A DNA stretch of 64,000 nucleotides from Acidovorax sp. NCPPB 3576 (GTDB lineage Bacteria; Pseudomonadota; Gammaproteobacteria; Burkholderiales; Burkholderiaceae_C). The notes under the pieces are model-generated. The model worked only from the letters and a program-made list of their open reading frames with translations, did no database searches and was not told the origin of the DNA. Positions 341 through 50,024 of this stretch are shown piece after piece. The position numbers were made by a program, and so were the translations under genes. Within the stretch, counting starts at the first letter, position 1. Every line of letters starts with the position of its first letter. The stretch covers positions 399,501 through 463,500 of the forward strand of contig NZ_CP097267.1 of assembly GCF_028473605.1 (NCBI RefSeq), in the 5' to 3' direction.

Positions 341-789
341 CCCGTGCTGCATTATTGATAGCTGTCTGCGCAATGATTATGGGCTGCGCAGCCTCGCCCG
401 CGCAGGCGCCTGCCGAGGATCGCGTGCTGGCCATCGCCGTGCCAGCTTGGGAGGCAGCCCCAGCGCGCACCGCGGAACCTGAGCCCCGTGCGTGCCCACC
501 GCTGCCGGTGCTGCGCGCGGGGGCGTCACCCCTGGAGCGGCGCGTGCATACCCAGACCATCGTGCGCATGTACGCGGACTGCGCAGAGGCTCCGCCGGCA
601 GAGTCTTCCGCATGCGAGTTGCTGTCGATCGCTTTCGACGAGGCCGAACTGGCGCCGGCCTGGTACGTGCGTGCTGGCTCGTTACTGGAGCGATGCGGGT
701 ATGCCAAGGCGGGTGCCAAGGCCGCACACCGCGCATGCTATGCCGAGCGTCGCAACGGCAGTGCCCGTGATTGCGAGGCCCTGCCATGA
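337..789 (+). CDS. Prophage lipoprotein of the lysis cassette
   Basis: 150-residue protein with an n-region (MTR), a short hydrophobic core and a lipobox ending M-G-C-A (Cys17), so it should be lipidated and anchored at the outer or inner membrane. The mature part contains several cysteines and a PPLPV motif. It overlaps the preceding gene (ATGA at 337) and the following one (ATGA at 786). Pairing with the coiled-coil protein upstream is reminiscent of Rz/Rz1 spanin pairs, though it is longer than a usual Rz1. Bases 346-372, which encode the signal-peptide core, match the dispersed repeat described elsewhere in this annotation. Function is inferred from context only. Confidence 0.65.
   Translation: MTRAALLIAVCAMIMGCAASPAQAPAEDRVLAIAVPAWEAAPARTAEPEPRACPPLPVLRAGASPLERRVHTQTIVRMYADCAEAPPAESSACELLSIAFDEAELAPAWYVRAGSLLERCGYAKAGAKAAHRACYAERRNGSARDCEALP
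346..372 (+). repeat. Dispersed 27-nt ATAGC repeat, copy 1 (coding, in signal peptide)
   Basis: Matches the window consensus GCTATTNNTTTGATAGCT followed by a G/C-rich GCGCA-like tail. In frame it encodes A-A-L-L-I-A-V-C-A of the lipoprotein signal peptide. Confidence 0.55.
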
Positions 790-1151
790 CCCCGGGCCAG
801 TACCTGCTGGCGGCCAGCGTCGCCGCCAATGCCGCCCTGGGCTGGGCCTACCTGGGCCAGCGCGACGAAACCACCGCAGCCCGCGGCGAGACCCAGGCTA
901 TGCAGCAGCAGCGCGACGGCATCCGCTCGGCGGCCAGCGCCTGCAGCGCGGGCGTTGAGGATCTGGCCCAGGCCGGAAAGCAGCGCGCCGCCGCCGCCGC
1001 CCCGGCTCGCCAGGCCGCTGCCGGCCGCGCCGCCGTGCACAACGCCAAGGCCGACGCGATCCTGTCCGCACCGGCCGCCGTGCCGGGTGATGCTTGCGCC
1101 AGCGCGCAGGCCCGGGTCGATGACTGGCTTAAGGGGAGGGCGCGGCCATGA
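786..1151 (+). CDS. Rz-like i-spanin candidate of the prophage
   Basis: 121 residues from the ATG at 786, which overlaps the previous stop as ATGA; an upstream TTG at 771 is possible but less likely. Residues about 5-22 form a single N-terminal membrane segment (YLLAASVAANAALGWAYLG). A Gln/Arg/Ala-rich helical region follows, with Cys residues near 50 and 105. One N-terminal anchor plus a periplasmic coiled coil is the architecture of phage Rz inner-membrane spanins. A matching Rz1-like lipoprotein lies at 1477. The family assignment is architectural, not by motif. Confidence 0.65.
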   Translation: MTPGQYLLAASVAANAALGWAYLGQRDETTAARGETQAMQQQRDGIRSAASACSAGVEDLAQAGKQRAAAAAPARQAAAGRAAVHNAKADAILSAPAAVPGDACASAQARVDDWLKGRARP

Positions 1152-1480
1152 TGACCCTGGCTCAGCCGGTGCGGATGATCTCTGGCCGCTACGCCCCATG
1201 CGCGATCGAAGATGCCACCCATGTCACGCTCAACATTCCCGGCCCGGCGGGGCGCCTCACGTTGCCAGTGATGCTGAAAGGTCGGCGCGAAGGCACGGGG
1301 TGCTGGACATGGAATGGCAGCACTACGGCGCCGACTCTGCGCCCCAGTGTGCTCAACACCGGCCACGCCCACCGGTGCCACACCTGGATCACGGACGGGT
1401 GCGCGCAATACCTTGATGACAGCTCGCACGACCTGCGCGGGCGGACCGTGCCGCTTGGCGCGTTGGAGGATATGCCATGA
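1148..1480 (+). CDS. DUF6527-type phage protein
   Basis: 110 residues, starting at ATGATG overlapping the previous stop. The core pattern CWTWNGS, PTLRPSVL, CHTWITDG and YLDDSSHDL is what I recognise as the DUF6527 family, small proteins frequent in phage tail/lysis regions of proteobacteria. The spaced His/Cys/Trp residues suggest a compact beta-rich, possibly metal-binding fold; this is inference. It sits between the two spanin-like genes in one continuous overlapping operon. Molecular function is unknown. Confidence 0.7.
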   Translation: MMTLAQPVRMISGRYAPCAIEDATHVTLNIPGPAGRLTLPVMLKGRREGTGCWTWNGSTTAPTLRPSVLNTGHAHRCHTWITDGCAQYLDDSSHDLRGRTVPLGALEDMP

Positions 1481-1767
1481 AAACCGCTATTGCTTTGATA
1501 GCTTACTGCGCACTTGCTGCGGGGTGCGCAACCCAAAATCATGTGGAAGTTCAGCGGGTGAATGTACCGATCCCGGTGGCCTGCGAAGAGCCTGTGCCCG
1601 ACCGGCCGTCCATGCCCACCGAGGCCCTGCGCATGGGCGCGACGGTGGACGACTTCGCGCGCGCCGCCATGCCGGAGATCGAGCGGCGAGAAGGGTATGA
1701 GGGGGAGTTGCTGACGGCGCTGGGCAACTGCCGGGCGCCCATCAAGCCCGCGTTGCCGAGCGAATAG
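1477..1767 (+). CDS. Rz1-like o-spanin lipoprotein
   Basis: 96 residues. The signal peptide ends A-A-G-C-A (lipobox, Cys17) and is followed by VPIPVACEEPVPDRP, a Pro-rich stretch typical of Rz1-like outer-membrane lipoproteins. The C-terminal half (EIERREGYEGELLTALGNC) is a short helix pattern I associate with Rz1-like proteins of Burkholderiales prophages. It probably pairs with the membrane-anchored protein at 786 to fuse inner and outer membranes at lysis. It overlaps the upstream stop (ATGA) and is the last gene of the overlapping operon. The signal-peptide core lies in a copy of the dispersed repeat. Confidence 0.75.
   Translation: MKTAIALIAYCALAAGCATQNHVEVQRVNVPIPVACEEPVPDRPSMPTEALRMGATVDDFARAAMPEIERREGYEGELLTALGNCRAPIKPALPSE
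1486..1512 (+). repeat. Dispersed 27-nt ATAGC repeat, copy 2 (coding, in signal peptide)
   Basis: GCTATT, then TTGATAGCT and the tail TGCGCA. In frame it encodes A-I-A-L-I-A-Y-C-A, the hydrophobic core of the Rz1-like signal peptide, in the same frame as copy 1. Confidence 0.6.
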
Positions 1768-1933
1768 CCCCGGCCTGGGCCACTCTTTCGTGGCCAGGTG
1801 GGGCGACGTAGGGCCTCGCTGCCGGCTATCAGCTGCCTTCCGCCTGCAGGTCGTGGGCAGCCGTGTGAGCTATCTGGCTTCGGGGATACTCATGCTGTTG
1901 TTGCCCTGCCGCTCCGTAAACCGTTGACCGCCC

Positions 1934-2203
1934 ATGATCCTGACCCTGCAGATTCATAAAGAAGAGCCCGGCCGCTATGCGGCGCAAGTCCTGAACGGCC
2001 ACGCAGAGGTGGCCACCTTCGACGCCTCGACGATTGGCGGGGCCATCCGCGAATGCGGCGCCGGCCCGCTGCCCGAGGTGTCCGCCTTCCATATCTGGTA
2101 TGGACACGTCAGCATCGGGACCACATTAACCGCGACCATGCGGCACGACAGCGAGACGCTGGCCCAGCGTCTGATGACCTTGCACGGGCAACTCAAGAGT
2201 TAA
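1934..2203 (+). CDS. Small hypothetical protein at prophage end
   Basis: 89 residues beginning MILTLQIHKEEPGRYAAQVL. I do not recognise a family. The predicted layout is alternating beta strands with a central helix (STIGGAIRECGAG) and no signal peptide or membrane segment, so it is probably cytoplasmic. No convincing ribosome-binding site precedes the ATG. It lies between the lysis operon and the truncated tRNA that marks the prophage edge, so it is probably a late-integrated accessory (moron) gene. Coding is supported by uninterrupted frame and a protein-like composition only. Confidence 0.5.
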   Translation: MILTLQIHKEEPGRYAAQVLNGHAEVATFDASTIGGAIRECGAGPLPEVSAFHIWYGHVSIGTTLTATMRHDSETLAQRLMTLHGQLKS

Positions 2204-2308
2204 ATCTCATGGGAAACGCACCTCGCTAAAATCCGATCTGCGCACCCCAGCTTGACCGAAAAATTCCCACGGGCCAAGCGCTACGCCGCGCCACAGGGGC
2301 TTTGTGCA

Positions 2309-2358
2309 AAGGATTGAAAATCCTTGTGTCGGTGGTTCGATTCCGCCCCAGGCCACCA
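2309..2358 (+). pseudogene. tRNA-Phe 3' half (GAA anticodon arm to CCA), probable prophage att site
   Basis: A 5-bp anticodon stem (2309-2313/2321-2325) closes the loop TTGAAAA with anticodon GAA. It is followed by a T-arm (2331-2347) and an acceptor 3' strand CCAGGCC-A-CCA (2348-2358). The 5' acceptor strand GGCCTGG and the D-arm that should precede it are absent, so this cannot fold as a tRNA. A 3' tRNA half at the outer edge of a phage gene block is the classic product of tRNA-targeted integration. The intact tRNA-Phe should lie left of the window beside the integrase end. Confidence 0.85.
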
Positions 2359-2370
2359 AACATCTCTCAA

Positions 2371-2397
2371 AGCCCATCCATAGCGATGGGCTTTTTT
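2371..2397 (+). terminator. Rho-independent terminator after the tRNA remnant
   Basis: Perfect 8-bp hairpin AGCCCATC/GATGGGCT with a 6-nt loop, running into TTTTTT. It is probably the original tRNA-Phe terminator, left in place when the phage inserted. Confidence 0.85.
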
Positions 2398-2457
2398 GTT
2401 TCTGCGCCGGCAAATGGCTTTCAGTGGGTGGTAACGCGTTGCTCTGCTCAAATCACT

Positions 2458-4110
2458 CTATCCAAGACTTATTGGAACGGGTGCCAAATAACGCAGTCCC
2501 TCCCGACGTCCGCATCCCACATCACCGCTTCGTATGGCGGCTGCTCTGTCTTGAATGCCCTCGCGCTGTGCTGGGCTCAGCGTGCCCAGCCGCTCTCGCT
2601 GAAATTCGAGCCGGGGCGCATTTTCCAGCCGGGCTTGATGACGAAGAAGGAATTCCCAATACAGAGTGGTGAACGGGCACGCCGCATCGCCCTGAAAAGC
2701 GGCGGGATCGTATTTGCACCCCGCGCAAGGCCCGCCCATGCGCTGGATGTACTTCCCGGTGGCGATGTAGGGCTTGCTGGCCATCAAACCTCCGTCGGCA
2801 TATTGGCTCATGCCCAGCGTGTTGGGCAACTCCACCCATTCGACGGCGTCCACATAGACCGCCAGATACCACTCGTGCACGGCCTTGGGCTTGACCCCCA
2901 GCAGCATCGCGAAAAGGCCCGTCACCATCAGGCGCTGGATGTGGTGCGCATAGCCATGCGCCAGGGTCTGGCGGATGGTCTGGTGCAGGCATTCGAAGTC
3001 CGTGCCGCCGGTCCAGTACCAGGCGGGCAATTCGCCTGAGGCTTCCAGCGCGTTGCGTTCGACGTAGGCCGGCATCTGCGTCCAGTAGATGCCGCGAACA
3101 TATTCGCGCCAGCCGAGGATCTGCCGGATAAAACCTTCCACGCTCGCCAGCGGTGCCCTGCCGGCCCGATAGGCCGCCTCGGCTGCGGCGACGACCTCGC
3201 GCGGGTTCAGCAGTTTGAGGTTGAGCGCAGCGGACAGGTGCGAGTGGTACAGCCAGGGCTCGCCCGGCCACATCGCATCCTGGTAAGGGCCGAACACGGG
3301 CAGCCGGTGGTCGATGAAATCTGCCAGCGCCTGCAATGCGTCCTGCCGGGTGACGGGCCACGCGAAGCTCTCCAGATCGCCGGGGTGGTCCGCAAACTGC
3401 TCCTGGACCCATCGCAGCGCATGGCGCGTCGTTTCGTCCGGTTCGAAGCGGCTTCGTTCCGGGACCATGCCCGGGCCATTGCGGCCGAAGGTTTGGCGAT
3501 TGGCTTTGTCGTAATTCCATTGGCCGCCTTCGGGCTCGCCGTCGGCCATGAGCACGTTGTGGCGTTGCCGAAGTGTCCGGTAGAAATATTCGAGCCGCAA
3601 AGGCTTGCCTTGCAGATGCCGTGCATAGGCTGCGAATTCTTTGACGGTCGTGTAGAAGTGGCGGTCGGGCCGGACTTCCAACCCCAGCCCAGCCTCGGCT
3701 GCGGCGCAGGACAGCGCCGTCCATACCCGCCAGTCCCCGGGCGCCGTCATGACGAGCTGGTCGGGTCGCAGCGTACGAAGCGTGGATTGGAGTTCGCCCG
3801 CCAGCGTGTCGCTGCGGCCCGGGCCATACAGGCGCGTGTAGCGCAGCCTCCAGCCTTTGCCGCGGACTGCCTGCGCGAAGTGCCGCATGGCCGCAATGAA
3901 CATCGCGATGCGCGGCTTGGAGGACCAGACGTGCGTGGACTCTTCCTTCACCTCGGCCATCCACACGCAGTCCTGGTCGGGATCGAAACCATCGAATGCC
4001 GAAGCCTCCAGATCGAGCTGATCGCCCAGCACGATGACGAGGGTGCGAACGGGCCTTTGGATCGGGTCTTCTTCGCTGAAGTCGGAGAGCGTCATGCGCG
4101 GCATATCCAA
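2458..4110 (-). CDS. phrB: Fe-S bacterial (6-4) photolyase / cryptochrome-type protein
   Basis: 550 residues of the FeS-BCP/CryPro class that uses light and FAD to repair pyrimidine (6-4) lesions. An N-terminal alpha/beta domain (VIVLGDQLDLEASAF, about 25-160) is followed by the helical FAD domain. Four cysteines at 374, 462, 465 and 478 have the spacing 88-3-13 known for the [4Fe-4S] ligands of Agrobacterium PhrB (C350, C438, C441, C454). The C-terminal block CAGCKYDP and CPFTTLYW is characteristic. The start could also be M3 or M6. It is the first chromosomal gene beyond the prophage edge and is transcribed toward it. Confidence 0.93.
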   Translation of the reverse strand: MDMPRMTLSDFSEEDPIQRPVRTLVIVLGDQLDLEASAFDGFDPDQDCVWMAEVKEESTHVWSSKPRIAMFIAAMRHFAQAVRGKGWRLRYTRLYGPGRSDTLAGELQSTLRTLRPDQLVMTAPGDWRVWTALSCAAAEAGLGLEVRPDRHFYTTVKEFAAYARHLQGKPLRLEYFYRTLRQRHNVLMADGEPEGGQWNYDKANRQTFGRNGPGMVPERSRFEPDETTRHALRWVQEQFADHPGDLESFAWPVTRQDALQALADFIDHRLPVFGPYQDAMWPGEPWLYHSHLSAALNLKLLNPREVVAAAEAAYRAGRAPLASVEGFIRQILGWREYVRGIYWTQMPAYVERNALEASGELPAWYWTGGTDFECLHQTIRQTLAHGYAHHIQRLMVTGLFAMLLGVKPKAVHEWYLAVYVDAVEWVELPNTLGMSQYADGGLMASKPYIATGKYIQRMGGPCAGCKYDPAAFQGDAACPFTTLYWEFLLRHQARLENAPRLEFQRERLGTLSPAQREGIQDRAAAIRSGDVGCGRREGLRYLAPVPISLG

Positions 4111-11024: not shown

Positions 11025-11133
11025 GCCCGGGGCAGCGAAAGGCGCCGCGCGGCGTGCTCGCAGGCCGTGCGCCCCCTTCCCGGCCGGTCCAACGGGGTTT
11101 TGAGCCTTTTCGGCCTCACGCCCTAGAAAATCA

Positions 11134-11160
11134 TGCGGTGGCAGCTATAAAAATAATAGC
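11134..11160 (-). repeat. Dispersed 27-nt ATAGC repeat, copy 3 (intergenic)
   Basis: On the minus strand it reads GCTATTATTTTTATAGCTG followed by CCACCGCA, the best match to the consensus. It lies between the convergent FIST and dadA genes, where its CTAT/ATAG dyad could also weakly terminate transcription. Confidence 0.6.
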
Positions 11161-11168
11161 AAAAGCCG

Positions 11169-12473
11169 TCAAATTGCCGGCATGAGCGCGGGCGCGGCCG
11201 TGCGCGGCATGCCGGTGAAGGCGAAGTCCACTTCCGGCGCCAGCCCGCTCACGATGCGGGCGATGGAGCGGCCCGAGCCGCAGGCGTGCGTCCAGCCCAG
11301 CGTGCCGTGGCCCGTGTTGAGGAACAGGTTGCCGATCTTCGTCTTGCCGATCAGCGGCACGTTGCTGGGCGTGGCGGGGCGCAGCCCGGTCCAGAACTGG
11401 GCCTGGCGCGTGTCGCCCGCGCCGGGAAAGAGTTCTTCCACGCGGCGCACGATGGCCTCGCAGCGCACGGGGTTCAAGTCGCGCTGGTAGCCGTTGAGTT
11501 CTGCCGTGCCGGCGATTCGCAGGCGGTCGCCGCGCTCGCTGGTGTAGCGCGAGAAGACGAGCTTGTATTCATCGTCCGTCAGGCTCACCTCGTAGGCCGC
11601 CGAGGCATCGCGCACCGGCAGGGTGACCGAATAGCCCTTGGCCGGGTAGATGGGCAGGCGCAGGCCCAGTGGCTCGGCCAGCAGCGGGCTGAACGAGCCC
11701 ATGGCCAGCACGTAGGCATCGCCCCGCACGCGTTCGAAGCGGCCTTCCGCGTTGGTGATCTCGGCATGGTCGATGGCGCCGCCTGCCGTGCGCAGCGCCG
11801 TGATGTGGCAGCCGGTACGGAACTGCACGCCCGCCGCCTGCGCCAGCCGGGCCAGCTCGCGCGTGAAGGTGTTGGCGTCGCCCGATTCGTCCTCGGCCGT
11901 GTAGGTGGCGCCGGCCAGTTGCGGGCGGATGTGGGCGAGTGCGGGCTCCAGCCGCACGGCCTCGTCGGCGCTGACCACGCGGCGCTCGCAGCCCAGGGCG
12001 CGCATCTGCTCGGCGGGGGCGAGCGCGGCATCGAACTCCCGGGCGCTCGTGTAGAAATGCAGGATGCCCTGCGTGCGCTGGTCGTACTGGATGCCCGTAT
12101 CGCGGCGCAATTGCTGCAGCGTGTCGCGGCTGTAGGTGCCCAGGCGCACGATCTGCTCGATGTTGTGCCGCGTGCGCGCCGGCGTGCATTCGCGCAGGAA
12201 CTGCAGGCCCCACAGCCACTGGCGCATGTCGGCGCGCAGGCGAAAGAGCAGGGGGGCGTCTTCGCGGCCCAGCCATTTCAGCACCTTGAACGGCGCGCCG
12301 GGATTGGCCCAGGGCTCGGCATGGCTCACCGAGATCTGCCCGCCGTTGGCGAAGCTGGTTTCCGCGCCGGGAACGCCCTGGCGGTCGGTGACGGTCACTT
12401 CGTGGCCGAGCTGCTGCAGGAAGTAGGCGGAGGTGGTGCCGAGCAGGCCGGCACCGAGAACGATCACGCGCAT
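11169..12473 (-). CDS. dadA: D-amino acid dehydrogenase small subunit DadA
   Basis: 434 residues. The N-terminal FAD-binding Rossmann motif is VLGAGLLGTTSAYFLQQLG (about 4-22). FANGGQIS at about 41-48 and the C-terminal block LNTGHGTLGWTHACGSG are DadA hallmarks. The enzyme oxidises D-amino acids, classically D-alanine, to oxo acids and ammonia and passes electrons to the membrane quinone pool. A tandem glycine riboswitch lies just upstream on the same strand, suggesting glycine-controlled expression and perhaps glycine-related catabolism. One copy of the dispersed repeat lies in the leader between riboswitch and start. Confidence 0.93.
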   Translation of the reverse strand: MRVIVLGAGLLGTTSAYFLQQLGHEVTVTDRQGVPGAETSFANGGQISVSHAEPWANPGAPFKVLKWLGREDAPLLFRLRADMRQWLWGLQFLRECTPARTRHNIEQIVRLGTYSRDTLQQLRRDTGIQYDQRTQGILHFYTSAREFDAALAPAEQMRALGCERRVVSADEAVRLEPALAHIRPQLAGATYTAEDESGDANTFTRELARLAQAAGVQFRTGCHITALRTAGGAIDHAEITNAEGRFERVRGDAYVLAMGSFSPLLAEPLGLRLPIYPAKGYSVTLPVRDASAAYEVSLTDDEYKLVFSRYTSERGDRLRIAGTAELNGYQRDLNPVRCEAIVRRVEELFPGAGDTRQAQFWTGLRPATPSNVPLIGKTKIGNLFLNTGHGTLGWTHACGSGRSIARIVSGLAPEVDFAFTGMPRTAAPALMPAI

Positions 12474-12523
12474 GATTCACAAGCCTTTTGGAAGGTTTGC
12501 ACCAAGCAAATCGCCGGCGTGGC

Positions 12524-12550
12524 GCTATTGAATCGATAGCATGCAGCCGA
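12524..12550 (+). repeat. Dispersed 27-nt ATAGC repeat, copy 4 (in the dadA leader)
   Basis: GCTATTGAATCGATAGC with a diverged tail. It lies between the glycine riboswitch and the dadA start codon, so it is transcribed as part of the dadA leader. Confidence 0.5.
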
Positions 12551-12580
12551 CGGCGATCTGCCGTGCTGCCGCTCCCCCTG

Positions 12581-12763
12581 TCCTTGGTACCTGAGAGATT
12601 CACCCTGCGCCAACACGGCGAGGGGCTTGCTCCTTCGGTGCGCCATGGCATGCATGGCGGCTCTCCAGACGGCTTTGATGGTGGTGCAGTACGGGACCTG
12701 AGCGTGTATGGGAGTTTGCGCCTTCGGTGGAGCGGCCCGGGGGCCGTTCGCTCTCCTGCGGGG
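12581..12763 (-). ncRNA. Tandem glycine riboswitch (gcvT motif) upstream of dadA
   Basis: Two aptamers on the minus strand. Aptamer 1 starts near 12763 (GCAGGAGAGCGAACG) with core CACCGAAGGCGCAAA and closes at CGCTCAGGTCCCG near 12691. Aptamer 2 starts near 12670 (TCTGGAGAGCCGCC) with core CACCGAAGGAGCAAG and closes at TCTCTCAGGTACCAAGGAC near 12581. The GGAGAG...CCGAAGG...CTCAGGTA pattern repeated twice is the glycine riboswitch signature. It sits 108 bp before dadA. Whether it acts on transcription or translation is not clear; I see no obvious U-tract terminator after it. Confidence 0.93.
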
Positions 12764-16890: not shown

Positions 16891-18834
16891 ATGAGCCAAG
16901 AGCAGGCCCGCATGGCCGACCACCCCCGCGCGGCCGAGCCGTCGCACCCCAACCAGTTCGCCTTGCTGCGCCAGCGCCGCTTTGCGCCATTCTTCTGGAC
17001 GCAGTTCGCCGGCGCGGCGAACGACAACCTGTTCAAGTTCGCCTTCACGGTGATGGTGACCTACCAGCTCAGCGTGTCGTGGATGCCGCCGTCCATGGCG
17101 GGGCTGGTGATCGGCGCGCTGTTCATCCTGCCGTTCCTGCTGTTCTCGGCCACGTCGGGGCAGCTGACGGACAAGTTCGACAAGACCCGCATGATCCGCT
17201 TCGTGAAGAACCTGGAGATCGCCATCATGCTGGTGGCGGCCTGGGGCTTCCTCGCCTCCAGCGCCGCGGTGCTGCTGGCGTGCACCTTCCTCATGGGGCT
17301 GCATTCCACGCTGTTCGGGCCGGTCAAGTTCGCGTACATGCCCCAGGTGCTGAACGAGCGCGAGCTGACGGGCGGCAACGGCATGGTCGAGATGGGCACC
17401 TTCGTCGCCATCCTGCTGGGCCAGGTGGCGGGCGGGCTGCTGGTGGCGGTGCCGGACATCGGCCATGCCTGGGTGGCGGCGACCTGCGTGCTGCTGGCGC
17501 TGGCCGGGCGCGCGGTGGCGCAGTTCATTCCGAGCGTGCCGGCCACCGACCCGGGCCTGTCGATCAACTGGAACCCGGTGACCGAGACCTGGCGCAACCT
17601 CCGGCTCGCGCATGCGAGCCCCGTGGTGTTCCGCTCGCTGCTGGGCATCAGCTGGATGTGGTTCTTCGGCGCGGTGTTCCTCTCGCAGTTTCCGAGCTTC
17701 GCCAAGGAAGTGCTGCACGGCGATGCGCACGTGGCCTCGCTGCTGCTCGTGGTGTTCTCGGTGGGCATCGGCGTGGGCTCGCTGCTGTGCGAGGTGCTGA
17801 GCCGCCGGCACGTGGAGATCGGCCTGGTGCCGCTGGGCGCCATCGGCATGAGCGTGTTCGCCATCGATCTGTACTTCGCCTCCCGCTCCCTGCCGCCCGC
17901 ACCCGAGATGGGGCTGGGCGCCTTCGTGGCGCAGGCCGCGCACTGGCGCGTGATGGCCGACCTGGCGCTGCTGAGCCTGTTCGCCGGCCTGTACAGCGTG
18001 CCCATGTATGCCCTGATCCAGATGCGCAGCCAGCCCACGCACCGGGCGCGCATCATCGCGGCCAACAACATCCTGAACGCGCTGTTCATGATCGGCAGCT
18101 CGCTGATCGCCGGCGCGCTGCTGGGGGCGGGCTTCTCGGTGCCGCAGATCTTTCTGTTCACGGGCATCGCCAACGCCATCGTGGCGTTCTACATCTTCCT
18201 GCTGGTGCCCGAGTACCTGCTGCGCTTCGTGGCGTGGGTGGCGTCGCGCTTCGTCTACCGCTTCAAGATCCGGGGCGACGAGCACCTGCCCACCCAGGGC
18301 GCGGCCATCCTGGTGTGCAACCACGTGAGCTTCGTGGACGCGGTGCTGCTCATGGCGGCGAGCCCCCGTCCGATCTACTTCGTGATGGACCACCGTATCT
18401 TCCGCGTGCCGGTGCTCGGCTGGCTGTTCCGCCTGGCCAAGGCCATTCCCATCGCGCCGCAAAAGGACGATCCGGCGGTCTATGCCGCGGCGTTCGAGCG
18501 CGCCGCGCAGGTGCTGCGGGAAGGGGATTTGCTGGCGATCTTTCCCGAGGGCGGCATCACGCGCGACGGGCAGCTGCAGCTGTTCAAGGGCGGCATCATG
18601 AAGATCCTCGACCGTGCCCGCGAGGAAGGCGTGGCGCCCCCGGTGATCCCGATGGCGCTGACCAACCTGTGGGGCTCGTATTTCAGCCGCATCGAGCGGG
18701 GCACGGCGATGGCGCGGCCCTTCCGGCGCGGGCTGTTCAACCGCGTGGGCCTGAATGTCGGGCCGGCCGTGCCCGCAGCGCTGGTGCAGCCCGAGCTGCT
18801 GCACGCGCGCGTGGCGGGCCTGTTGGCCGACTGA
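16891..18834 (+). CDS. MFS transporter fused to 1-acyl-glycerol-3-phosphate acyltransferase (LplT-PlsC type)
   Basis: 647 residues from the ATG behind CAGGAG. Residues about 20-440 form a 12-helix major facilitator unit related to lysophospholipid flippase LplT (FWTQFAGAANDNLFKFAF). About 455-647 is a PlsC acyltransferase with motif I NHVSFVD (H-x4-D) and motif III EGGITRDG. In Aas/LplT systems lysophospholipids are flipped inward and re-acylated; here both steps would be in one chain. The AMP-dependent acyl-ACP synthetase domain of longer family members is missing. It acts at the inner membrane in phospholipid repair and is followed by a GC hairpin. Confidence 0.9.
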   Translation: MSQEQARMADHPRAAEPSHPNQFALLRQRRFAPFFWTQFAGAANDNLFKFAFTVMVTYQLSVSWMPPSMAGLVIGALFILPFLLFSATSGQLTDKFDKTRMIRFVKNLEIAIMLVAAWGFLASSAAVLLACTFLMGLHSTLFGPVKFAYMPQVLNERELTGGNGMVEMGTFVAILLGQVAGGLLVAVPDIGHAWVAATCVLLALAGRAVAQFIPSVPATDPGLSINWNPVTETWRNLRLAHASPVVFRSLLGISWMWFFGAVFLSQFPSFAKEVLHGDAHVASLLLVVFSVGIGVGSLLCEVLSRRHVEIGLVPLGAIGMSVFAIDLYFASRSLPPAPEMGLGAFVAQAAHWRVMADLALLSLFAGLYSVPMYALIQMRSQPTHRARIIAANNILNALFMIGSSLIAGALLGAGFSVPQIFLFTGIANAIVAFYIFLLVPEYLLRFVAWVASRFVYRFKIRGDEHLPTQGAAILVCNHVSFVDAVLLMAASPRPIYFVMDHRIFRVPVLGWLFRLAKAIPIAPQKDDPAVYAAAFERAAQVLREGDLLAIFPEGGITRDGQLQLFKGGIMKILDRAREEGVAPPVIPMALTNLWGSYFSRIERGTAMARPFRRGLFNRVGLNVGPAVPAALVQPELLHARVAGLLAD

Positions 18835-23561: not shown

Positions 23562-25175
23562 TCAGGGCGCCTTCACGACATGCGGAAAGGTCAGCCCGTA
23601 GTTGGCCGCTACGCCGGGCGTGGCGCTGGGGTTGCTCAGCTTGGTGAACGCTGCGCCGATCAGGGGAATTCCTCTCGCGTCGGGTACCCGCATGACCGCC
23701 CAGCCGTTGAGGGCCGTGCCTGGCAGCGTCTTGCGGGCGATGGAGGAGGACACGGCCGACCGGCTCTCGGAGAACGAAAGCACGGACAGGGCGCCGCAGC
23801 TTTCTGGCTGCAATGCGGCGTCCGCCACCACGCTGTCGGGCGTGAGGGTGCCGTCGCGCGAGCCCATCCGGAAGCTCCAGCTGCCGCCCTGGCTGCAGAC
23901 GCCGTCGCGGACCTGGGTGTTGAGCGCGTGGAAGTACTGCTCGCCGGCCCCGCTGGGGGGCACGACGGAGTAGACGCGCTGGTTCGATGGGTCGGACTGG
24001 CTGTAGTCCTTGGCCACGCTGTACCGCTTGGTGGGTGTTGCGACCACCCAGTCGGTGCGGGCGGCGATGGAGTCGTCGAGAACGTACTGGTTCTTGAATT
24101 CTCGGACCGCCAGCAGCCGGGACAGGTCGCCTGCCGTCGCGCGGGCGCTGGCTGCGGTGGCGGGCAGATAGACGGGCGTCGAAAGATCGGGCAGGTCGTT
24201 ATAGCGGGCCAGCAGGACAGCGGATGCCGTCGGGAACGAGGTATTGCCCTGAAGGTCCTTGTTCCGGGTGGCCAGGCCTGCGGACACCAGCAGCGGGTCG
24301 GCGGTGTAGCGCTCTGGCTGCAACACTGCCGTGTCCGTGGGGGGGAACAGCATGTAGTTGCCGCGCGCCGGAAGGCCCGTGTTGTTGATGGCCTGGATTG
24401 CCGTGGCAGCGCCGGAGAACGTGGTGGAGCCGGGTACGTCGATGATGTACCAAGTTGCACTGAGCTGCCCGCTGGGGGCCGCAAGGCCGCGGCTGGCGGC
24501 GACGGCCTCGCTGCTCGTGTCCTGCAGCAGCGCTGCGTTGAGCACGGATTCGGAGCAGGGCGCGACTTCCTTGACTTGCTGGATGGCGACGGACAGCGCC
24601 GACTTGCTTGCGCCGTCGGTACCGTAGATCGATGCCTGTGGCACGTCGGCCATCACGATGGCTTCGATGGCGCCTTCGCGGGTGTTGGCCGCCATGACCT
24701 CTGGCGTCCATGCGGGGTCCAGCCGACTGGTGGAAAAAGGTTGCGCAACCCCTTGGGCCAGCCGCGGCAGCGTACAGGTGTTGTCACTTGTGGTCAGCTG
24801 AGCCAGGCCGTCGGCCCCGGCCGTCACGGCGCCCGTCCACACGTCGCCGGGCGACAGCAGCACATGCACGCTCAGCAGGCTGTCGCCGTTGTTGGCCCCG
24901 CGAAAGCGCACCTTCACGACCTTGCCGTTGTCGAGGTCGGTGTTCACGAGGTGCAGCACCGTCATCTGGCCGTTCTGTGCCGTGAAGTAGGGCACCAGCA
25001 ATGCATGGCCGGCCTGGCCTTCGGCCACCTTGATGCTGACGGCATCGGTCCCGCCCAGCTGCGTGCTGGAAGGCGTGGCGCCGGTGCCGGCGATCACGCC
25101 TGCGTGTGCTGCGCCGGCCATGGCCAGCGTGCCGAGCAGGGCGCTGACCGCCCCGGAAATGGTCTTGACTTTCAC
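23562..25175 (-). CDS. Secreted protein of unknown function, tandem paralog A
   Basis: 537 residues from a GTG start at 25175 with AGGAGA well placed before it. A signal peptide (SALLGTLAMAGAAHA) precedes the mature start GVIAGTGATPSS. The rest is beta-rich with conserved blocks shared with its neighbour: TAQNGQMTVLHLVNTDL, KVRFRGANNGDSLL, PGDVWTGAVTAG, YIIDVPGSTTFSGAATAI, FPPTD and PTKRYSV, and ending NYGLTFPHVVKAP. Several paired cysteines suggest disulphides in the periplasm or outside the cell. No known domain is recognised. It differs from the paralog throughout, so the duplication is old. Confidence 0.8.
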   Translation of the reverse strand: MKVKTISGAVSALLGTLAMAGAAHAGVIAGTGATPSSTQLGGTDAVSIKVAEGQAGHALLVPYFTAQNGQMTVLHLVNTDLDNGKVVKVRFRGANNGDSLLSVHVLLSPGDVWTGAVTAGADGLAQLTTSDNTCTLPRLAQGVAQPFSTSRLDPAWTPEVMAANTREGAIEAIVMADVPQASIYGTDGASKSALSVAIQQVKEVAPCSESVLNAALLQDTSSEAVAASRGLAAPSGQLSATWYIIDVPGSTTFSGAATAIQAINNTGLPARGNYMLFPPTDTAVLQPERYTADPLLVSAGLATRNKDLQGNTSFPTASAVLLARYNDLPDLSTPVYLPATAASARATAGDLSRLLAVREFKNQYVLDDSIAARTDWVVATPTKRYSVAKDYSQSDPSNQRVYSVVPPSGAGEQYFHALNTQVRDGVCSQGGSWSFRMGSRDGTLTPDSVVADAALQPESCGALSVLSFSESRSAVSSSIARKTLPGTALNGWAVMRVPDARGIPLIGAAFTKLSNPSATPGVAANYGLTFPHVVKAP

Positions 25176-25454
25176 GGTTTCTCCTGTGATTGGGATGGCA
25201 GGTGGGAACGTCTCCGCCATCGCCCGCGGGCCGCGCAAAGGCAGCCCGTCACGCGATGGGGTCGGCACGGTGGTGGGGGGCCAAAGGCCGCCCTGGGCGG
25301 CCGCTGCATGCAGCAGGCCACCCGCAAATCGAAACACCGCGCTGAGGATGGGAGCCATGCCGGGCGATGGTGCCCGGCGGCCCCTGCAAGGATCGTGAAC
25401 CCGTTCCGAGCGCCAGGTCCATGGCGGCTTGGACAGCCGCCGCCCTGCGTGCGC

Positions 25455-27047
25455 TCAGGGCGCTTTATACATGTGCGGCATGGTCAGGCCGTAATTGCCC
25501 GCGACGCCAGGTGTGGCATTGGGGTTGGTGAGCTTGAGCAGTGCCGCGCCGATGATGGGCCGGCCATCCGACGCATTCGTGGCGATGCTGGCCCAGCCGG
25601 ACACGAAGGCGTCCGAGCGGGGCTGCGTGGTGATCGACGCCGAGACGCTGGAGCGGCCCGCGTCCTGGAAACCCACCGTGGCCACCGTGCCGCAGGCCAC
25701 CACGGGGCTGAGGGCGAGCCGGGTGGTGGTCTGGCGGTCGAAATAGGTCAGGTTCCACTGGCTGCACACGCTCTCGGGGTTGGTCTTGACCTGGGTGTCG
25801 TCGCCCGAGAAATACTGGCTGCCGAGGTCCGAGGGCGGCACCACCGAATACACGCGGGCCACTGCGGGGGGCTGGCTGTAGTCGTAGGCCACGCTGTAGC
25901 GCTTGGTGGGCATCGACAGCACCCAGTCCGTCCGGGCGGAAATGGAGGGGTCGGTGGCGTACTGGTTCATCACCTCGGTGGCGGCGAATTGCGCCGACAG
26001 GTCCCCGGCCGTCCTGCGCGCGTTGCGCTCGCCGGCCGGCAGGTAGTAGGGCGTGGACAGGTCGGGCAGGTCGTAGTAGCGCGCCTGGATGACGGCCGCA
26101 TTGGTGGGCTCGCTGGTTTCGCCGTCGATGTTCTTCACGCGGGTGGCGACGCCGGCCGAGACCAGCAGCGGGTCGGCGGTGTAGCGCTCGGGCGAGGCGA
26201 CGGTCAGCCCGGTGGGCGGAAACAGCACGTAGTTGCCCCGTGCATTGCGGCCCGCGTTGTTGACAGCGCGGATCGCGGTGGCGGCCCCCGAGAAGGTGGT
26301 GGAGTTGGGCACGTCGATGATGTACCAGGTGCCCGCCACGCCGCCCGTGGGCGTGGCCAGGCCGCGGGCTGCGGCGGTGGCCTCGGTGCTGGTGTCTTCC
26401 AGCAGCGCGGCGCTCAGCGCCGCATCGGTGCAGGGGGCCGTTCCGTTCACCGGGCGGATGGCCGTGAAGAGGGCGGAGCGTTCCTGCTGGCCCGTGCCAT
26501 AAACGGCGGCGGCGGGAATGTCGGCCGCCACGATGGCCTCGATGGCGCCCTCGCGGGTGTGGTTGGCCTGCACGTCGGCGGCCCACAGGGGGTTGAGCCG
26601 CTCGGTGATGAAGGCCTGTGCCACGCCAGGCGCGAGCCGGGGCGAGGTGCAGGTCGCATCGGCGGTGGTGAGTTGCGCGATGCCGTTGGCGCCGGCCGTC
26701 ACCGCGCCGGTCCAGACGTCGCCAGGAGCCAGCAGCACGGTCATGTGCAGCAGGCCATCGCCGTTGTTGGCGCCGCGAAAGCGCAGCTTCACGGCCTTGC
26801 CGTTGTTCACGTCGGTGTTGACCAGGTGCAGCACGGTCATCTGCCCGTTCTGCGCCGTGTAGTAAGGCACCACGAGGCTGTGGCCGGGGCCGCTTTCGGC
26901 GATGGCGTAGGTGGTGGCATCGGTGGTGCCCATCACGCTGCTGGAGGGCGTGCCCCCCGTGCCGGCGATGACGCCGGCCAGGGCGCTGGAGGCGAAGCCG
27001 GCGCTGCACAGCAGGGCGCACGCGGCCGCGATCTTCTGGATAGGCAT
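25455..27047 (-). CDS. Secreted protein of unknown function, tandem paralog B
   Basis: 530 residues. Signal peptide AAACALLCSAGFASSALA, then GVIAGTGGTPSSS. It has the same length and block order as the gene downstream: TAQNGQMTVLHLVNTDV, RFRGANNGDGLL, APGDVWTGAVTAGANG, YIIDVPNSTTFSGAATAI and C-terminal NYGLTMPHMYKAP. AAGGA lies before the ATG. The two genes are 280 bp apart on the same strand, so each may have its own promoter. The conserved N-terminal domain could be a surface or adhesion module, but I recognise no family and assign no function. Confidence 0.82.
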   Translation of the reverse strand: MPIQKIAAACALLCSAGFASSALAGVIAGTGGTPSSSVMGTTDATTYAIAESGPGHSLVVPYYTAQNGQMTVLHLVNTDVNNGKAVKLRFRGANNGDGLLHMTVLLAPGDVWTGAVTAGANGIAQLTTADATCTSPRLAPGVAQAFITERLNPLWAADVQANHTREGAIEAIVAADIPAAAVYGTGQQERSALFTAIRPVNGTAPCTDAALSAALLEDTSTEATAAARGLATPTGGVAGTWYIIDVPNSTTFSGAATAIRAVNNAGRNARGNYVLFPPTGLTVASPERYTADPLLVSAGVATRVKNIDGETSEPTNAAVIQARYYDLPDLSTPYYLPAGERNARRTAGDLSAQFAATEVMNQYATDPSISARTDWVLSMPTKRYSVAYDYSQPPAVARVYSVVPPSDLGSQYFSGDDTQVKTNPESVCSQWNLTYFDRQTTTRLALSPVVACGTVATVGFQDAGRSSVSASITTQPRSDAFVSGWASIATNASDGRPIIGAALLKLTNPNATPGVAGNYGLTMPHMYKAP

Positions 27048-29172: not shown

Positions 29173-29220
29173 CTTCCACGCGGGTTTATAGTCAAAAGCC
29201 GCTGATGCCGGGATATTGAT

Positions 29221-29247
29221 TGCCTGTGTTGCTATCAAATGAATAGT
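29221..29247 (-). repeat. Dispersed 27-nt ATAGC repeat, copy 5 (intergenic)
   Basis: Minus strand ACTATTCATTTGATAGCA with tail ACACAGGCA. It lies between the DUF2145 gene and the zinc-ribbon gene, about 24 bp upstream of the latter's start codon. Confidence 0.55.
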
Positions 29248-39696: not shown

Positions 39697-40647
39697 GTGC
39701 TGTCCGTTCTGTCCATCACTTTTCCCTTCTTCGCGCTCGTGCTCTGCGGCTACCTGGCCGCGCGTGCAGGCGCGCTGCCGCAGGTGGCCATTCCCGGGCT
39801 GAATGCGTTCGTGCTGTTCTTCGCGCTGCCGTGCATGCTGTTCCGCCTGGGCGCGAACACGCCCATCGGCCAGTTGCTGGACCCGGCGGTGGCGGGCGTG
39901 TACATCCTGTGCGGCCTGGCCCTGGTCGGTGCCACCGTGGCGCTCACGCGGGCGCGGCAGGGCTGGAACGATGCGGCCTTCGGTGCGCTGGTGACCGCCT
40001 TTCCCAACACCGGGTTCATGGGCGTGCCGCTGCTGGTGGCGCTGCTGGGCGCGTCGGCGGCGGGGCCCGCCATCCTGACGATGCTGGTGGACATGGTGCT
40101 GACCACCTCGCTGTGCATCGCCTTGTCGCGGCTGGACGGCGTGGGCACGCACGGCGTGGCGGTGGCGGTGCGCCGGGCCTTGCGCGGCATGGCGACCAAC
40201 CCCATGCCCTGGGCCATCGCGCTCGGGGCCGTGGCGTCCGCGCTGCAGTGGACATTGCCCGGCCCGCTCGACCAGACGGTGGCCATGCTGGCCGGCGCGG
40301 CATCGCCCGTGGCGCTGTTCACGATCGGCGCCGTTCTGGCGCGCTCGCAGATGAACCAGCACGACCGCGTGCCCCCGCGCGACTACGTGCCGGTGGCGCT
40401 CGCCAAGCTGTTCGTGCACCCGCTGCTCGTCTGGGGGGCGGGGCATGGCGCGATCGCGGCGGGCGTGCCGCTCACGCCGTTCGCGCACACGGTGCTGGTG
40501 CTGGTGGCGGCGCTGCCCAGTGCCAGCAACGTGTCGCTGCTGGCCGAGCGCTTCGGCGCCCACAACGGGCGCATCGCGCGGATCATCCTGGTGTCCACCG
40601 CGCTGGCGTTTTTGAGCTTTTCGGCCGCCACCGCAATATTGATCTAG
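39697..40647 (+). CDS. AEC-family (auxin efflux carrier) transporter
   Basis: 316 residues from a GTG at 39697 (a TTG at 39679 is the alternative); no good ribosome site decides it. About ten membrane helices in two five-helix halves. FPNTGFMGVPLL near residue 105 is the helix-breaking motif of the AEC/BASS fold, and LVAALPSASNVSLLAERFG near residue 270 is its counterpart. It probably exports or exchanges small carboxylates such as malate. It is separated from the GTPase operon by a terminator and convergent with priA. Confidence 0.9.
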   Translation: MLSVLSITFPFFALVLCGYLAARAGALPQVAIPGLNAFVLFFALPCMLFRLGANTPIGQLLDPAVAGVYILCGLALVGATVALTRARQGWNDAAFGALVTAFPNTGFMGVPLLVALLGASAAGPAILTMLVDMVLTTSLCIALSRLDGVGTHGVAVAVRRALRGMATNPMPWAIALGAVASALQWTLPGPLDQTVAMLAGAASPVALFTIGAVLARSQMNQHDRVPPRDYVPVALAKLFVHPLLVWGAGHGAIAAGVPLTPFAHTVLVLVAALPSASNVSLLAERFGAHNGRIARIILVSTALAFLSFSAATAILI

Positions 40648-40654
40648 GCGTTGC

Positions 40655-40681
40655 GCTATTTATTTGATAGCAATCGATGGC
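40655..40681 (+). repeat. Dispersed 27-nt ATAGC repeat, copy 6 (intergenic)
   Basis: GCTATTTATTTGATAGCA with a diverged tail, between the convergent AEC and priA genes, starting eight bases past the AEC stop. Confidence 0.55.
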
Positions 40682-40720: not shown

Positions 40721-42862
<2,142 letters not shown>

Positions 42863-45609: not shown

Positions 45610-45637
45610 GGCGGGCGGGGGGGTGAAAATGGAATGG

Positions 45638-46817: not shown

Positions 46818-46838
46818 TAACCCCAGGAGAGACTTGCG

Positions 46839-46997
46839 ATGTCCATGGTCGAATCGATTTTGCTGTGCCTGCTGGTGACCCTGGTCATCACCACGTACGT
46901 CGGCTGGCGCTCGGGCAACGAGCGCCGCGATGTGGGGCTGCTCGCGGGCCTCACCGCCCTGTGCGGGGTGGGGACCGCGACCGCGCTGGCGGTGTGA
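46839..46997 (+). CDS. 52-residue membrane protein downstream of terC
   Basis: Small gene with a strong ribosome site (AGGAGA, 8 bases before the ATG) and a terminator 24 bp after its stop. It encodes two hydrophobic helices (ILLCLLVTLVITTYVGW and VGLLAGLTALCGVGTATALAV) separated by a charged turn (RSGNERRDVG), so a hairpin in the inner membrane with the loop in the cytoplasm. It is co-transcribed with terC by position. I recognise no family. It could modulate TerC, as small proteins do for other ion transporters; this is inference. Confidence 0.82.
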   Translation: MSMVESILLCLLVTLVITTYVGWRSGNERRDVGLLAGLTALCGVGTATALAV

Positions 46998-47020
46998 CGC
47001 GGCAAATGCAGCAGTCAGCG

Positions 47021-47044
47021 GCGGCCTTCGGGCCGCTTTTTTTT
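47021..47044 (+). terminator. Rho-independent terminator of the terC operon
   Basis: GCGGCC-TTCG-GGCCGC tetraloop hairpin followed by eight T. Confidence 0.9.
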
Positions 47045-47066
47045 GCCCGCGCTGGTTCGGACGCGA

Positions 47067-47675: not shown

Positions 47676-47807
47676 GGCGTTTCTCCTGTCGAAAGAACGA
47701 ACGGGGCCGGGGCCCCCGGGGCGGCCCAGTGTCACCGACCCTCCTGCGCATCGCCACCCAAAACCCCCGTGCCGGCAGGGCGATGGCGATCCCGATGAAC
47801 GAAACGC

Positions 47808-50024
47808 TTACAGGCCGGCGATGGCCGCGCGCACTTCCTGCACGCCCAGGATTTCCGACAACACCACGGGCGGGCGGCCCGGCGCCTGCAGCACGTACAC
47901 CGGCACGCCGCTGCGCCCCAGTTGCGCCAGCGCGGCGGTGATGGCGGGATCGCGGCGCGTCCAGTCGGCGCGCAGCAAGGCCACGTTCTTGGCGGCGAAG
48001 TCCTTCAGCACGTCTTCGTGGGCCAGGGTGGTTTTCTTGTTGTACTGGCAGGTCACGCACCAGGCGGCGGTGTAGTCCACGAACACCGGCTGGCCCTTGG
48101 CCACCAGTTCCTCGGGCAGCCCGGGCTGCCAGGGGCGCCAGCCACCCGCCGTGGCAGCGGCCGCCGCCACCGCCGGGCTGGGCGGGGTTTCAAGCACTTT
48201 TGGTGCCCATGCCGTAGTCAAATATGCCAAGAGCGCTATCGAAATAGGAGCAATCGCCCAGCGGGTGCGCCCGGCGAGCGTGAGCGCCCAGACCGCCATG
48301 CTGAGCGTGACCAGCAGCGCCAGCAGGGCCGCCGCGCCGTCGATGCCGCTTTGCTGGCCCAGCACCCACACCAGCCACACCACGGTAGCGAACATCGGGA
48401 AGGCCATGAACCGGCGCAGCGTGTCCATCCAGGCGCCGGGCCGGGGCAGGGCGCGCGCCACCGCGGGCACCCAGCTGGCGGCCAAATACGGCAGCGCCAG
48501 CCCCAGGCCCAGCGCGCCGAACACCGCCAGCGCCTGCGCGGCCGGCAAGGTGGCCGTGAGGCCGAGCGAGGCGCCCATGAACGGCGCGGTGCAGGGCGAG
48601 GCCACGGCCACGGCCAGCACGCCGGTCAGGAACGCATCCACCGCCGGGTGGCGGGCCTGCAGGCTGGCCACCGAACTGGGCAGGAAACGCCCGAACTCGA
48701 ACACGCCCGCCAGATTCAGCCCGATCACGGTGAACAGCGCCGCCAGCAGCGCCACCACGCCGGGCGACTGCAGCTGAAAGCCCCAGCCCACGGCCTCGCC
48801 CGCGGCGCGCAGCGCGAGCATGAGCGCGCCCAGCGCCATGAACGACAGCACCACGCCGGCCGTGTAAGCCAGCCCGCCGATGCGATGGGCGCGGCGGTTT
48901 TGCGCATGCTGGGCAAAGCCCACCACCTTGATCGCCAGCACCGGGAACACGCAGGGCATGAGGTTGAGGATCAGCCCGCCCAGCAGCGCGCCCGCCAGCG
49001 CCGCCAGGAGCGTGCCCAGCGGCGCGGCGGTGACGGGGGGCGCGGCCGGCGCACCCCCGCCCTGGGCCGCGTTGGCGCGCAAGGCCGCCTCCAGTGCAGG
49101 CGAGACGCTGGCCATCGCCGCGAGCTGGGGCCAGCCGCCCTCCAGGGGCAACTCGGTGCGCCAGCCCTGGCCGGCATGGGCCAGCACCACGGGCATGGGC
49201 GTGGGGCTGGCGCTGCGCTGCGGCGACAGCGGCACGCGCGCCGTCCACACGTCGCCCTGCCAGGCCTGTGTCCAGTCGGCCGCGGTTTCGATCACACCGG
49301 TGGTTTCGGGAAAGAACTCCAGCGCCTTGCCGCGCAGCGCGGCGGGCAGCCCGGCCACGGTGAGGGCGATGGCGTCGCCGTCCACGCGGGCGCTGCTGGC
49401 CGGGGCGCCCTTGGCGGGCGCCGGCAGCGGCTGGGGGTGCGCCTGCTGCGCCGTGTCGAAGGCCGCGGCGCTCAGCGCCGTGGTGCTGCGGATCGGCAAC
49501 TGCAGGGTGAAGTCGCCTTCTTCGGGAATGCACTCCTTGCGGCACACCAGCCACGAGGCGCGCAGGTGGAAGGTGGCGGTGCGCGCCAGCGGGCCAGGCG
49601 CGAACGCATCGGAGACGGCCATGGGCACCGGCAGCAGCACCGTGCCCTCGTAGCCGTAGTTGGCCAGGTTGCCGATGGGGATCTTGCGCGGGACAGGCCA
49701 GGCGATGTCGCCGGCCTCGATGCCTGCGGGCACCTGCCACTCCAGCTGCGTGGGCAGGCCCGAGTCGCCCGAATTCATCCAGTAGGTGTGCCACTCGGGC
49801 TGGTGCGTGATCGACAAGCCCAGCCAGAGCGGCTTGCCCGGCGCCACGCCCTCGGGGGCGTGGGCCACCAGTTCGGCCTGCACATGGGGGGTGGTGACGG
49901 TGCTACTGCCGCTGCCGGCGCCGGTGGTTTTTGGGGGCAATTGGGCCCCGGCGCCCATGTGGAAAGCGCTGGCAGCTATCAAAAACAGAGCAGGCAGCAA
50001 GCGCTGGAGCAGGCGGTGTGACAT
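47808..50024 (-). CDS. dsbD: Protein-disulfide reductase DsbD
   Basis: 738 residues. Signal peptide (LLQRLLPALFLIAASAFHMGAGA), then a periplasmic alpha domain with Cys pair SWLVCRKECIPEEG. Eight membrane helices follow with LNLMPCVFP and ASPCTAPFMGA, the two Cys that shuttle electrons. A C-terminal thioredoxin domain has AWCVTCQ. All six catalytic Cys are present. It moves reducing power from cytoplasmic thioredoxin to periplasmic DsbC/DsbG and cytochrome maturation proteins. Two copies of the dispersed ATAGC repeat lie in its coding region, in the signal peptide and just after the last membrane helix. Confidence 0.95.
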   Translation of the reverse strand: MSHRLLQRLLPALFLIAASAFHMGAGAQLPPKTTGAGSGSSTVTTPHVQAELVAHAPEGVAPGKPLWLGLSITHQPEWHTYWMNSGDSGLPTQLEWQVPAGIEAGDIAWPVPRKIPIGNLANYGYEGTVLLPVPMAVSDAFAPGPLARTATFHLRASWLVCRKECIPEEGDFTLQLPIRSTTALSAAAFDTAQQAHPQPLPAPAKGAPASSARVDGDAIALTVAGLPAALRGKALEFFPETTGVIETAADWTQAWQGDVWTARVPLSPQRSASPTPMPVVLAHAGQGWRTELPLEGGWPQLAAMASVSPALEAALRANAAQGGGAPAAPPVTAAPLGTLLAALAGALLGGLILNLMPCVFPVLAIKVVGFAQHAQNRRAHRIGGLAYTAGVVLSFMALGALMLALRAAGEAVGWGFQLQSPGVVALLAALFTVIGLNLAGVFEFGRFLPSSVASLQARHPAVDAFLTGVLAVAVASPCTAPFMGASLGLTATLPAAQALAVFGALGLGLALPYLAASWVPAVARALPRPGAWMDTLRRFMAFPMFATVVWLVWVLGQQSGIDGAAALLALLVTLSMAVWALTLAGRTRWAIAPISIALLAYLTTAWAPKVLETPPSPAVAAAAATAGGWRPWQPGLPEELVAKGQPVFVDYTAAWCVTCQYNKKTTLAHEDVLKDFAAKNVALLRADWTRRDPAITAALAQLGRSGVPVYVLQAPGRPPVVLSEILGVQEVRAAIAGL
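48225..48251 (-). repeat. Dispersed 27-nt ATAGC repeat, copy 7 (coding, in dsbD)
   Basis: Minus strand GCTCCTATTTCGATAGCG and tail CTCTTGGCA; in frame A-P-I-S-I-A-L-L-A within a hydrophobic segment of DsbD ahead of the thioredoxin domain. Confidence 0.45.
49965..49991 (-). repeat. Dispersed 27-nt ATAGC repeat, copy 8 (coding, in dsbD signal peptide)
   Basis: Minus strand GCTCTGTTTTTGATAGCTG then CCAGCGCT; in frame A-L-F-L-I-A-A-S-A, the core of the DsbD signal peptide. Confidence 0.55.

Follow-up and report, generated by a model that had tools for sequence, protein, structure and literature searches.

A dispersed, family-restricted repeat translated in frame at putative signal peptides of DsbD and other proteins in Acidovorax sp. 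NCPPB 3576

In a 64,000-nt stretch of Acidovorax sp. NCPPB 3576 (assembly GCF_028473605.1, contig NZ_CP097267.1, positions 399,501 to 463,500, forward strand; hereafter the window, with coordinates counted from its first nucleotide), we studied an AT-rich repeat which lies mostly between genes and is also translated within dsbD and two prophage lipoprotein genes. The initial annotation, made from the letters of the window, had described a repeat of 27 nt; the unit turned out to be ~55-65 nt long and to occur in three classes (I, II and III), the reported motif being the AT-rich A block at one of its ends. We consider it most probable (about 70%) that the repeat is old, has been passed on vertically and has had its hydrophobic frame co-opted as a signal peptide. 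Such a repeat, specific to one bacterial family and sitting mostly right after stop codons, would be held in place by descent. In genes for exported proteins whose 5' end contained a copy or gave rise to one, frame 0 of that copy may have been tolerated or selected as a signal peptide. It looks as if dispersed, mostly non-coding DNA supplied several unrelated genes with the targeting peptides of the conserved exported proteins that they encode; comparison can then address how new signal peptides originate and whether repeat turnover can shape protein sequence genome-wide.

Coding copies resemble the repeat beyond the peptide requirement

At the DNA level, the coding copies are closer to the dispersed repeat than their peptides call for. 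When five sites were recoded synonymously with the codon usage of this genome, applied to the prophage genes too, the observed profile score was reached in 0 of 1500 recodings at each site, a difference of 6-9 standard deviations; ATA makes up 3% of the isoleucine codons in this genome. The in-gene copies had been described as the signal-peptide cores of DsbD and of two prophage lipoproteins and as a hydrophobic segment of DsbD, an assignment of position that held, and the four of them in the window do share one frame, all being read in frame 0:

345..386, + strand: read as the putative signal peptide of a prophage lipoprotein (open reading frame (ORF) 337-789), MTRAALLIAVCAMIMGC; nhmmer class II match, 16.1 bits, E 4e-4, model positions 4-47 of 67
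1486..1544, + strand: read as the putative signal peptide of a prophage lipoprotein resembling spanins (ORF 1471-1767), MKTAIALIAYCALAAGC; perfect A block
48197..48253, - strand: frame-0 copy in dsbD, hydrophobic segment APISIALLAYLTTAW ahead of the thioredoxin domain; class III, 9.7 bits, E 0.044
49930..49992, - strand: full-length class II copy in dsbD, frame 0, h-/c-region of the signal peptide, ALFLIAASAFHMGAGAQ; 39.4 bits, E 2e-11, model positions 4-66 of 67
47808..50024, - strand: dsbD, 738 aa, carrying the two preceding copies; Pfam DsbD_N, DsbD_TM and Thioredoxin_7

The class II profile was built from 40 intergenic copies of other genome records, picked by an exact 20-mer, and those of classes I and III from own copies outside the window (n=82 and 24), some of them in genes. 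Over 20 shuffled windows the highest scores were 8.8 (class I), 9.4 (class II) and 10.6 (class III) bits, and because these maxima are similar to their scores, the matches at 1494 (10.4 bits, class II) and 48197 (9.7 bits, class III) are marginal alone. With profiles trained without the window, the DsbD signal peptide was recovered at full length and the first lipoprotein clearly, the second lipoprotein and the DsbD segment being marginal. The ungapped score of the 345..386 copy was low (3.3), yet 0 of 1500 synonymous recodings reached it. The 1486 copy matched the 18-mer with 0 mismatches, its class II match at 1494-1544 having only 10.4 bits (E 0.024); a phage ortholog of this lipoprotein (L460; L and G numbers denote loci and genomes) retained an A-block-like signal peptide (12.0 bits, class I), and the PHROG match of ORF 1471-1767 to an Rz-like spanin was weak (E 9e-4). 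For the copy at 48225, which the short-motif search had missed, a chance match was preferred at first and was dropped on ortholog scores of up to 33 bits.

The repeat unit, its placement and its distribution

The repeat itself proved to be real, as the described sequence was present at 8/8 reported places and GCTATTNNTTTGATAGC with at most one mismatch gave 138 matches across the 5.41-Mb genome against 0 in the reversed control, so that it stands far above chance. An 18-mer with at most three mismatches recovered 6/8 of the reported places, 346 and 48225 failing, against 0.07 expected by shuffling, and in the own-genome stretches examined there were 171 profile matches of at least 14 bits and 0 in reversed sequence. 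The element consists of an AT-rich block (...TTTGATAGC), a short spacer, a GC-richer block (...GGGCTGGAGGCC) and a T/A run. The second block was recognisable in 119 of the 127 own copies examined (class I 83, class III 25, class II 11); eight lacked it by the rule used, including three coding ones (1486, 3670395 and that of a deacetylase described below). Mean GC of the element is 42-46% (53 nt, 119 own copies) against 69% for the window. The class I A block is near-palindromic and the class I terminus combines a GC-rich arm with a T run, and the CNGCGCA-like tail attributed to the repeat belongs to class II, not to the other classes. Sense frame 0 of class II reads (A/T)LFLIAACA...GA-x-AQ, a hydrophobic core with a plausible signal-peptidase or lipobox region after it. 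No Rfam family spanned element copies at the gathering threshold. Against mononucleotide shuffles, own copies had a slight folding advantage (mean z -1.95, -1.51 and -1.22; 40 of 83 class I copies used), and a conserved RNA structure for class II was considered and rejected, the consensus holding 2 pairs and no covariation, with 20 columns invariant through the 20-mer selection.

The other copies in the window lie outside or at the ends of genes:

11099..11163, - strand: intergenic element, convergent genes either side; class III, 36.5 bits, E 2e-10; same place in the sister genome G164
12503..12542, - strand: intergenic partial element, flanked by a glycine riboswitch and by gene 11169-12473; class I match of 16.2 bits (E 3e-4); same place in G164
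29187..29246, - strand: intergenic element, tandem genes either side; class III, 44.5 bits, E 6e-13
40620..40674, - strand: element at convergent 3' ends, overlapping the end of gene 39697-40647; class I, 31.2 bits, E 7e-9; same place in G164

The glycine riboswitch aptamer (Rfam, 12568-12678, - strand) lies directly upstream of the 12503-12542 element and of gene 11169-12473. Elsewhere in the window, an Rfam tRNA match at 2298-2355 (+ strand), for which ARAGORN made no call, adjoins prophage-like genes and is perhaps an attachment-site remnant; an Rfam match to the small RNA Bcj11 (93.6 bits) was found at 17594-17715 (+ strand) within the called gene 16891-18834, and 23562-27047 (- strand) holds two similar neighbouring genes, with repeats 1875 nt apart at 73-79% identity.

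Among the 119 classed copies of the genome, 104 lay between called genes, 13 in genes and 2 at edges. The 104 intergenic copies fell between 64 tandem, 35 convergent and 5 divergent gene pairs; where the pair was tandem, the median copy stood ~20 or 38 nt past the upstream gene by orientation, and orientation was symmetrical (++ 32, -- 32). In G164 the element occupied the same place for 16/16 mappable own copies (18 tried), and recent mobility was rejected on this lack of insertion polymorphism; the proposal of an element now mobile or spreading was not borne out. The site near 29187, inspected across 14 further members of the genus, carried class III, II/I or I depending on the species; it was empty in six genomes depleted of the element, its locus was truncated in G162 and it gave no match in G152. 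The gap measured 66-68 nt in 5/6 depleted genomes against 96-125 nt in most element-bearing ones; it was 938 nt in G157 and 101 nt in the element-free G150. A further site, upstream of a Y1_Tnp gene resembling a REP-associated tyrosine transposase (RAYT; REP, repetitive extragenic palindromic), was class III or I/II and was empty in the six depleted genomes and in the non-depleted G088 and G162. This RAYT-like gene was single in L169-L180 and L464-L480 and neighbours what we take to be gltB, except in L466 and L474, where the neighbour is different.

In a survey of the family, 64/150 genomes matched, with 0 to 218 copies each, the reversed control giving at most one match on either strand of a genome. 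With a stricter class II pattern, matches were found in 3/250 genomes of the order, all among the 7 of the family, and in 0/243 from other families; G020, where the first pattern matches 76 times, was missed by it, and the absence outside the family holds for the stricter pattern only. An exact 20-mer scan of named genomes returned 104 matching stretches, 80 of which form the class II survey. The 80 bear mostly Comamonadaceae genus names (Polaromonas, Acidovorax, Ottowia, Comamonas, Rhodoferax) and some only that of an order or phylum; two odd 20-mer records were Alkalicoccus and a metagenome-assembled genome (MAG) labelled Desulfovibrionaceae. The element is practically confined to one family. 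Within the genus, copy number was 3-6 in 6/17 members and 27-138 in the remainder. The six depleted genomes form one nested clade (100/99) with no element at either DsbD site (<=4.6 bits) nor in the deacetylase, and since they are one clade, this joint absence counts as one event.

DsbD orthologs and other coding copies

At the DsbD hydrophobic segment, orthologs scored with class III in L185 (33.4 bits), L187 (25.7), L183 (20.5), L184 (16.1), L182 (14.2) and L188 (13.9) and with class II in L198 (26.1), L199 (13.6) and L186 (12.6), little or no element score being found in L193, L194 and L197. The DsbD signal peptide remains class II where other sites carry class III. Among the non-depleted genus members together with G003 and G004, ATA encodes the isoleucine of LIA in 12/12 readable DsbD signal peptides and is present at the hydrophobic segment in 12/13; in the depleted clade it was found in 0/6 signal peptides, which have a CTG or CTC leucine instead. 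The 12 element-free DsbD loci (six depleted genomes, G001, G002, G006 and three other families) scored <=5.4 bits and reversed DsbD loci <=7.8 bits. The initial annotation had held that distant orthologs with the peptide and without the repeat would count against it, and this partly applies, as in DsbD of genera further off (G001, G002, G006) the signal peptide is about as long and lacks the repeat. Because the DsbD proteins of the three other families are shorter beyond the signal core, an old insertion is possible; the constant length within the genus favours replacement, conversion or early recruitment over a fresh insertion.

In the class II survey, all 11 full sense coding copies with a positive coding score used frame 0 and had a start codon in the same frame 5-11 codons upstream, and they form the N-terminal peptides of DsbD in four organisms, of one lipoprotein family in three (the third member, L339, being assigned by eye), and of LolA, an SLT_2 transglycosylase, GspD and HupE/UreJ. 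By position, hydrophobic core and protein family, such copies are putative signal peptides. These 11 were the loci with a positive downstream coding score among 26/80 with an open frame 0 and a nearby start, the 15 negative ones (including L300) being dropped; 7/11 had been called intergenic through the choice of a later start and were accepted on their open frame and coding score, LolA, SLT_2 and GspD also on Pfam. Partial overlaps with genes were left uncounted (sense L286, 1 nt at the gene end; antisense L323, L329 and L345). Eleven antisense copies lay fully within called genes, nine reading AQAAIK and two RRQLSK. In L301, L310, L314 and L315, one of which is the record of a MAG labelled Desulfovibrionaceae, an antisense copy stands at about residue 74-77 (the start differs in L310) of seemingly one protein.

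The claim that coding copies are always read in one frame was correct for the window and for the 11 survey copies, and too broad beyond them: one weaker sense copy, L261, is read in another sense frame, and in the own-genome stretches examined 21 in-gene calls fell into four frames, namely sense frame 0 (7) and three antisense frames (7, 4 and 3), two of the 21 being opposite strands of one copy near 1401800. Stop codons were considered as the cause of the frame and rejected, as they suit class I (s0 open in 56, s2 in 4, n=83) and not class II, where sense frame 0 was open in 29 and frame 2 in 28 of 43 intergenic copies. One antisense own in-gene copy is hydrophobic; whether a copy is hydrophobic is set by its class as well as by its frame.

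One further coding copy of the own genome was followed in other genomes:

Outside the window: polysaccharide deacetylase (Pfam PF01522) with the element as N-terminal peptide

The deacetylase site carried a class III copy in G000 and G164 and a class II copy in G152, and was mixed in G002, with weak scores in G004 (14.7 bits), G151 (10.7) and G154 (10.6); 18 of the 25 loci scanned were below 10 bits, the six depleted genomes included, the nearest being G088 (9.1). Of 21 loci covered by phage scans, 4 (L457, L459, L488, L493) combine a plausible gene with a signal peptide resembling the element, 10 reach at least 17 bits with no convincing gene and 7 score lower, mostly on AT-rich contigs; one further phage scan gave no matches. 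The viral contigs L457 and L459 encode small phage proteins with element signal peptides, with an HNH match in L457 (E 2e-4) and none in L459. A protein search with the L289 lipoprotein returned 87 homologues.

Competing explanations and known systems

Several observations weigh against the co-option of an old repeat. Three element-bearing genomes scored low at the DsbD signal peptide with ATA kept (G157 7.7, G152 7.0 and G162 4.0 bits), and G002, with 48 genome copies, has none there. DsbD segment lengths are constant in the genus with or without the element, and a fresh insertion would change them. The 11 sense copies represent ~7 gene families, so that the frame test gives only p 0.016. The gene finder missed the right start in 7/11 of them and in both window lipoproteins, which leaves the contexts approximate, and 5/7 own sense frame-0 calls are class III copies encoding soluble Ala/Pro-rich linkers such as AIKTIADEAINPPAG. 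We infer the direction of recruitment, and likewise the force that spread and homogenised the copies.

The best-placed alternative, to which we give roughly one chance in three, is concerted evolution or drive, where a trans-acting process (gene conversion or selection on a bound motif) keeps all copies near the consensus and the signal peptides merely tolerate it. It would accommodate the coincidence of genome-wide depletion in one clade (3-6 versus 27-138 copies) with the lack of the element in the deacetylase and at either DsbD site, the differences in class between species at orthologous sites (the DsbD segment, III or II; the 29187 site; the RAYT-upstream site) and the unchanged length of DsbD. 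However, the depleted clade is one event, the class differences could have come about by normal descent, given that the seven genomes with class III are closely related apart from the depleted clade, the DsbD signal peptide is class II even where other sites are class III, and the non-depleted G088 and G162 are without the RAYT-upstream copy. It is only tentatively that we suggest that in-gene copies evolve in concert with the dispersed ones, the signal peptides of export proteins and a membrane segment being held to the consensus and lost together with the drive; if true, a genome-wide repeat drives protein sequence.

Somewhat less probable is that the main role of the element lies at mRNA 3' ends, in termination, attenuation or stabilisation, with the coding copies as side effects. 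The excess of tandem and convergent over divergent placements (64 and 35 versus 5), the medians of ~20-38 nt past the upstream stop and the GC-rich arm with T run of class I are consistent with such a role, but promoter avoidance would give the same placement, and the symmetrical orientation, the modest folding of own copies and the absence of a conserved class II fold argue against it.

Mobilisation of a REP or REPIN element by a RAYT transposase appears improbable. Copy number and intergenic, 3' placement fit it, as do the Y1_Tnp gene in 17/17 genus genomes and the Y1_Tnp match in 36/40 genomes with at least 10 copies against 76/110 others (p 0.01). Nevertheless, Y1_Tnp is retained in all six depleted genomes, no match was found in G020 (76 copies), G040 (18 copies; 74% complete), G068 (10) or G141 (169), the gene is single with the element close upstream in some genomes only, and class II lacks a conserved fold. 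A gene carried by each of the 17 genus members, the depleted ones included, is not an obvious driver, and RAYT was judged unlikely in that role because its presence does not track the repeat. Chance or amino-acid convergence of ordinary signal peptides is very improbable, for although LFLIAACA is a typical hydrophobic core and the matches at 1486 and 48225 are marginal by themselves, the recoding result at every site, the full-length matches and the low scores of element-free and reversed DsbD loci contradict it.

No description of the element was found in the open-access literature searched, and in PMC3733652 and PMC12306157 the genus and group names had 0 occurrences. The co-option of an old repeat as a signal peptide has a precedent in principle: Delihas (2007), in the portions available, put forward that in-frame fusion of small mobile repeats gives rise to signal peptides and membrane segments (PMC2759123, PMC2229807). 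To judge from the same portions, ERIC (RU-1) and YPAL (RU-2) are likewise small intergenic repeats fused in frame; they measure 127 and 168 nt with long stable hairpins, whereas our element has ~60 nt, no conserved fold in class II, belongs to another family, has copies in conserved export genes (DsbD, LolA, GspD) and is jointly absent in one clade. Rickettsia palindromic elements (RPE) are also translated in frame inside conserved proteins, and the excerpt describes them as insertions of 105-146 nt with long hairpins (PMC2229807), unlike our element with its constant DsbD length in the genus and likely signal-peptide role. In being a dispersed repeat translated inside conserved genes, our element matches the in-frame fusions of the RPE and ERIC/YPAL type.

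The beta-proteobacterial repeat element (BRE) resembles ours in being dispersed in Comamonadaceae and their kin, mostly intergenic and in part coding; full-length copies of 75-91 nt, a mean GC of 69% in Bordetella and frequent tandem arrangement, as far as the excerpt describes them (PMC3110155), set it apart from an element of 42-46% GC. REP/REPIN-RAYT systems are similar in copy number and extragenic placement and differ in that the presence of a cognate RAYT does not follow our repeat (weak association, 36/40 versus 76/110). As to features of miniature inverted-repeat transposable elements, insertion polymorphism was absent (16/16 in G164), and the 29187 site was empty with a shorter gap in 5/6 depleted genomes. 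The principle of co-option had already been proposed; new, to judge from the literature searched, are this repeat family, the recruitment of its copies by several conserved export genes and their shared absence from a single clade.

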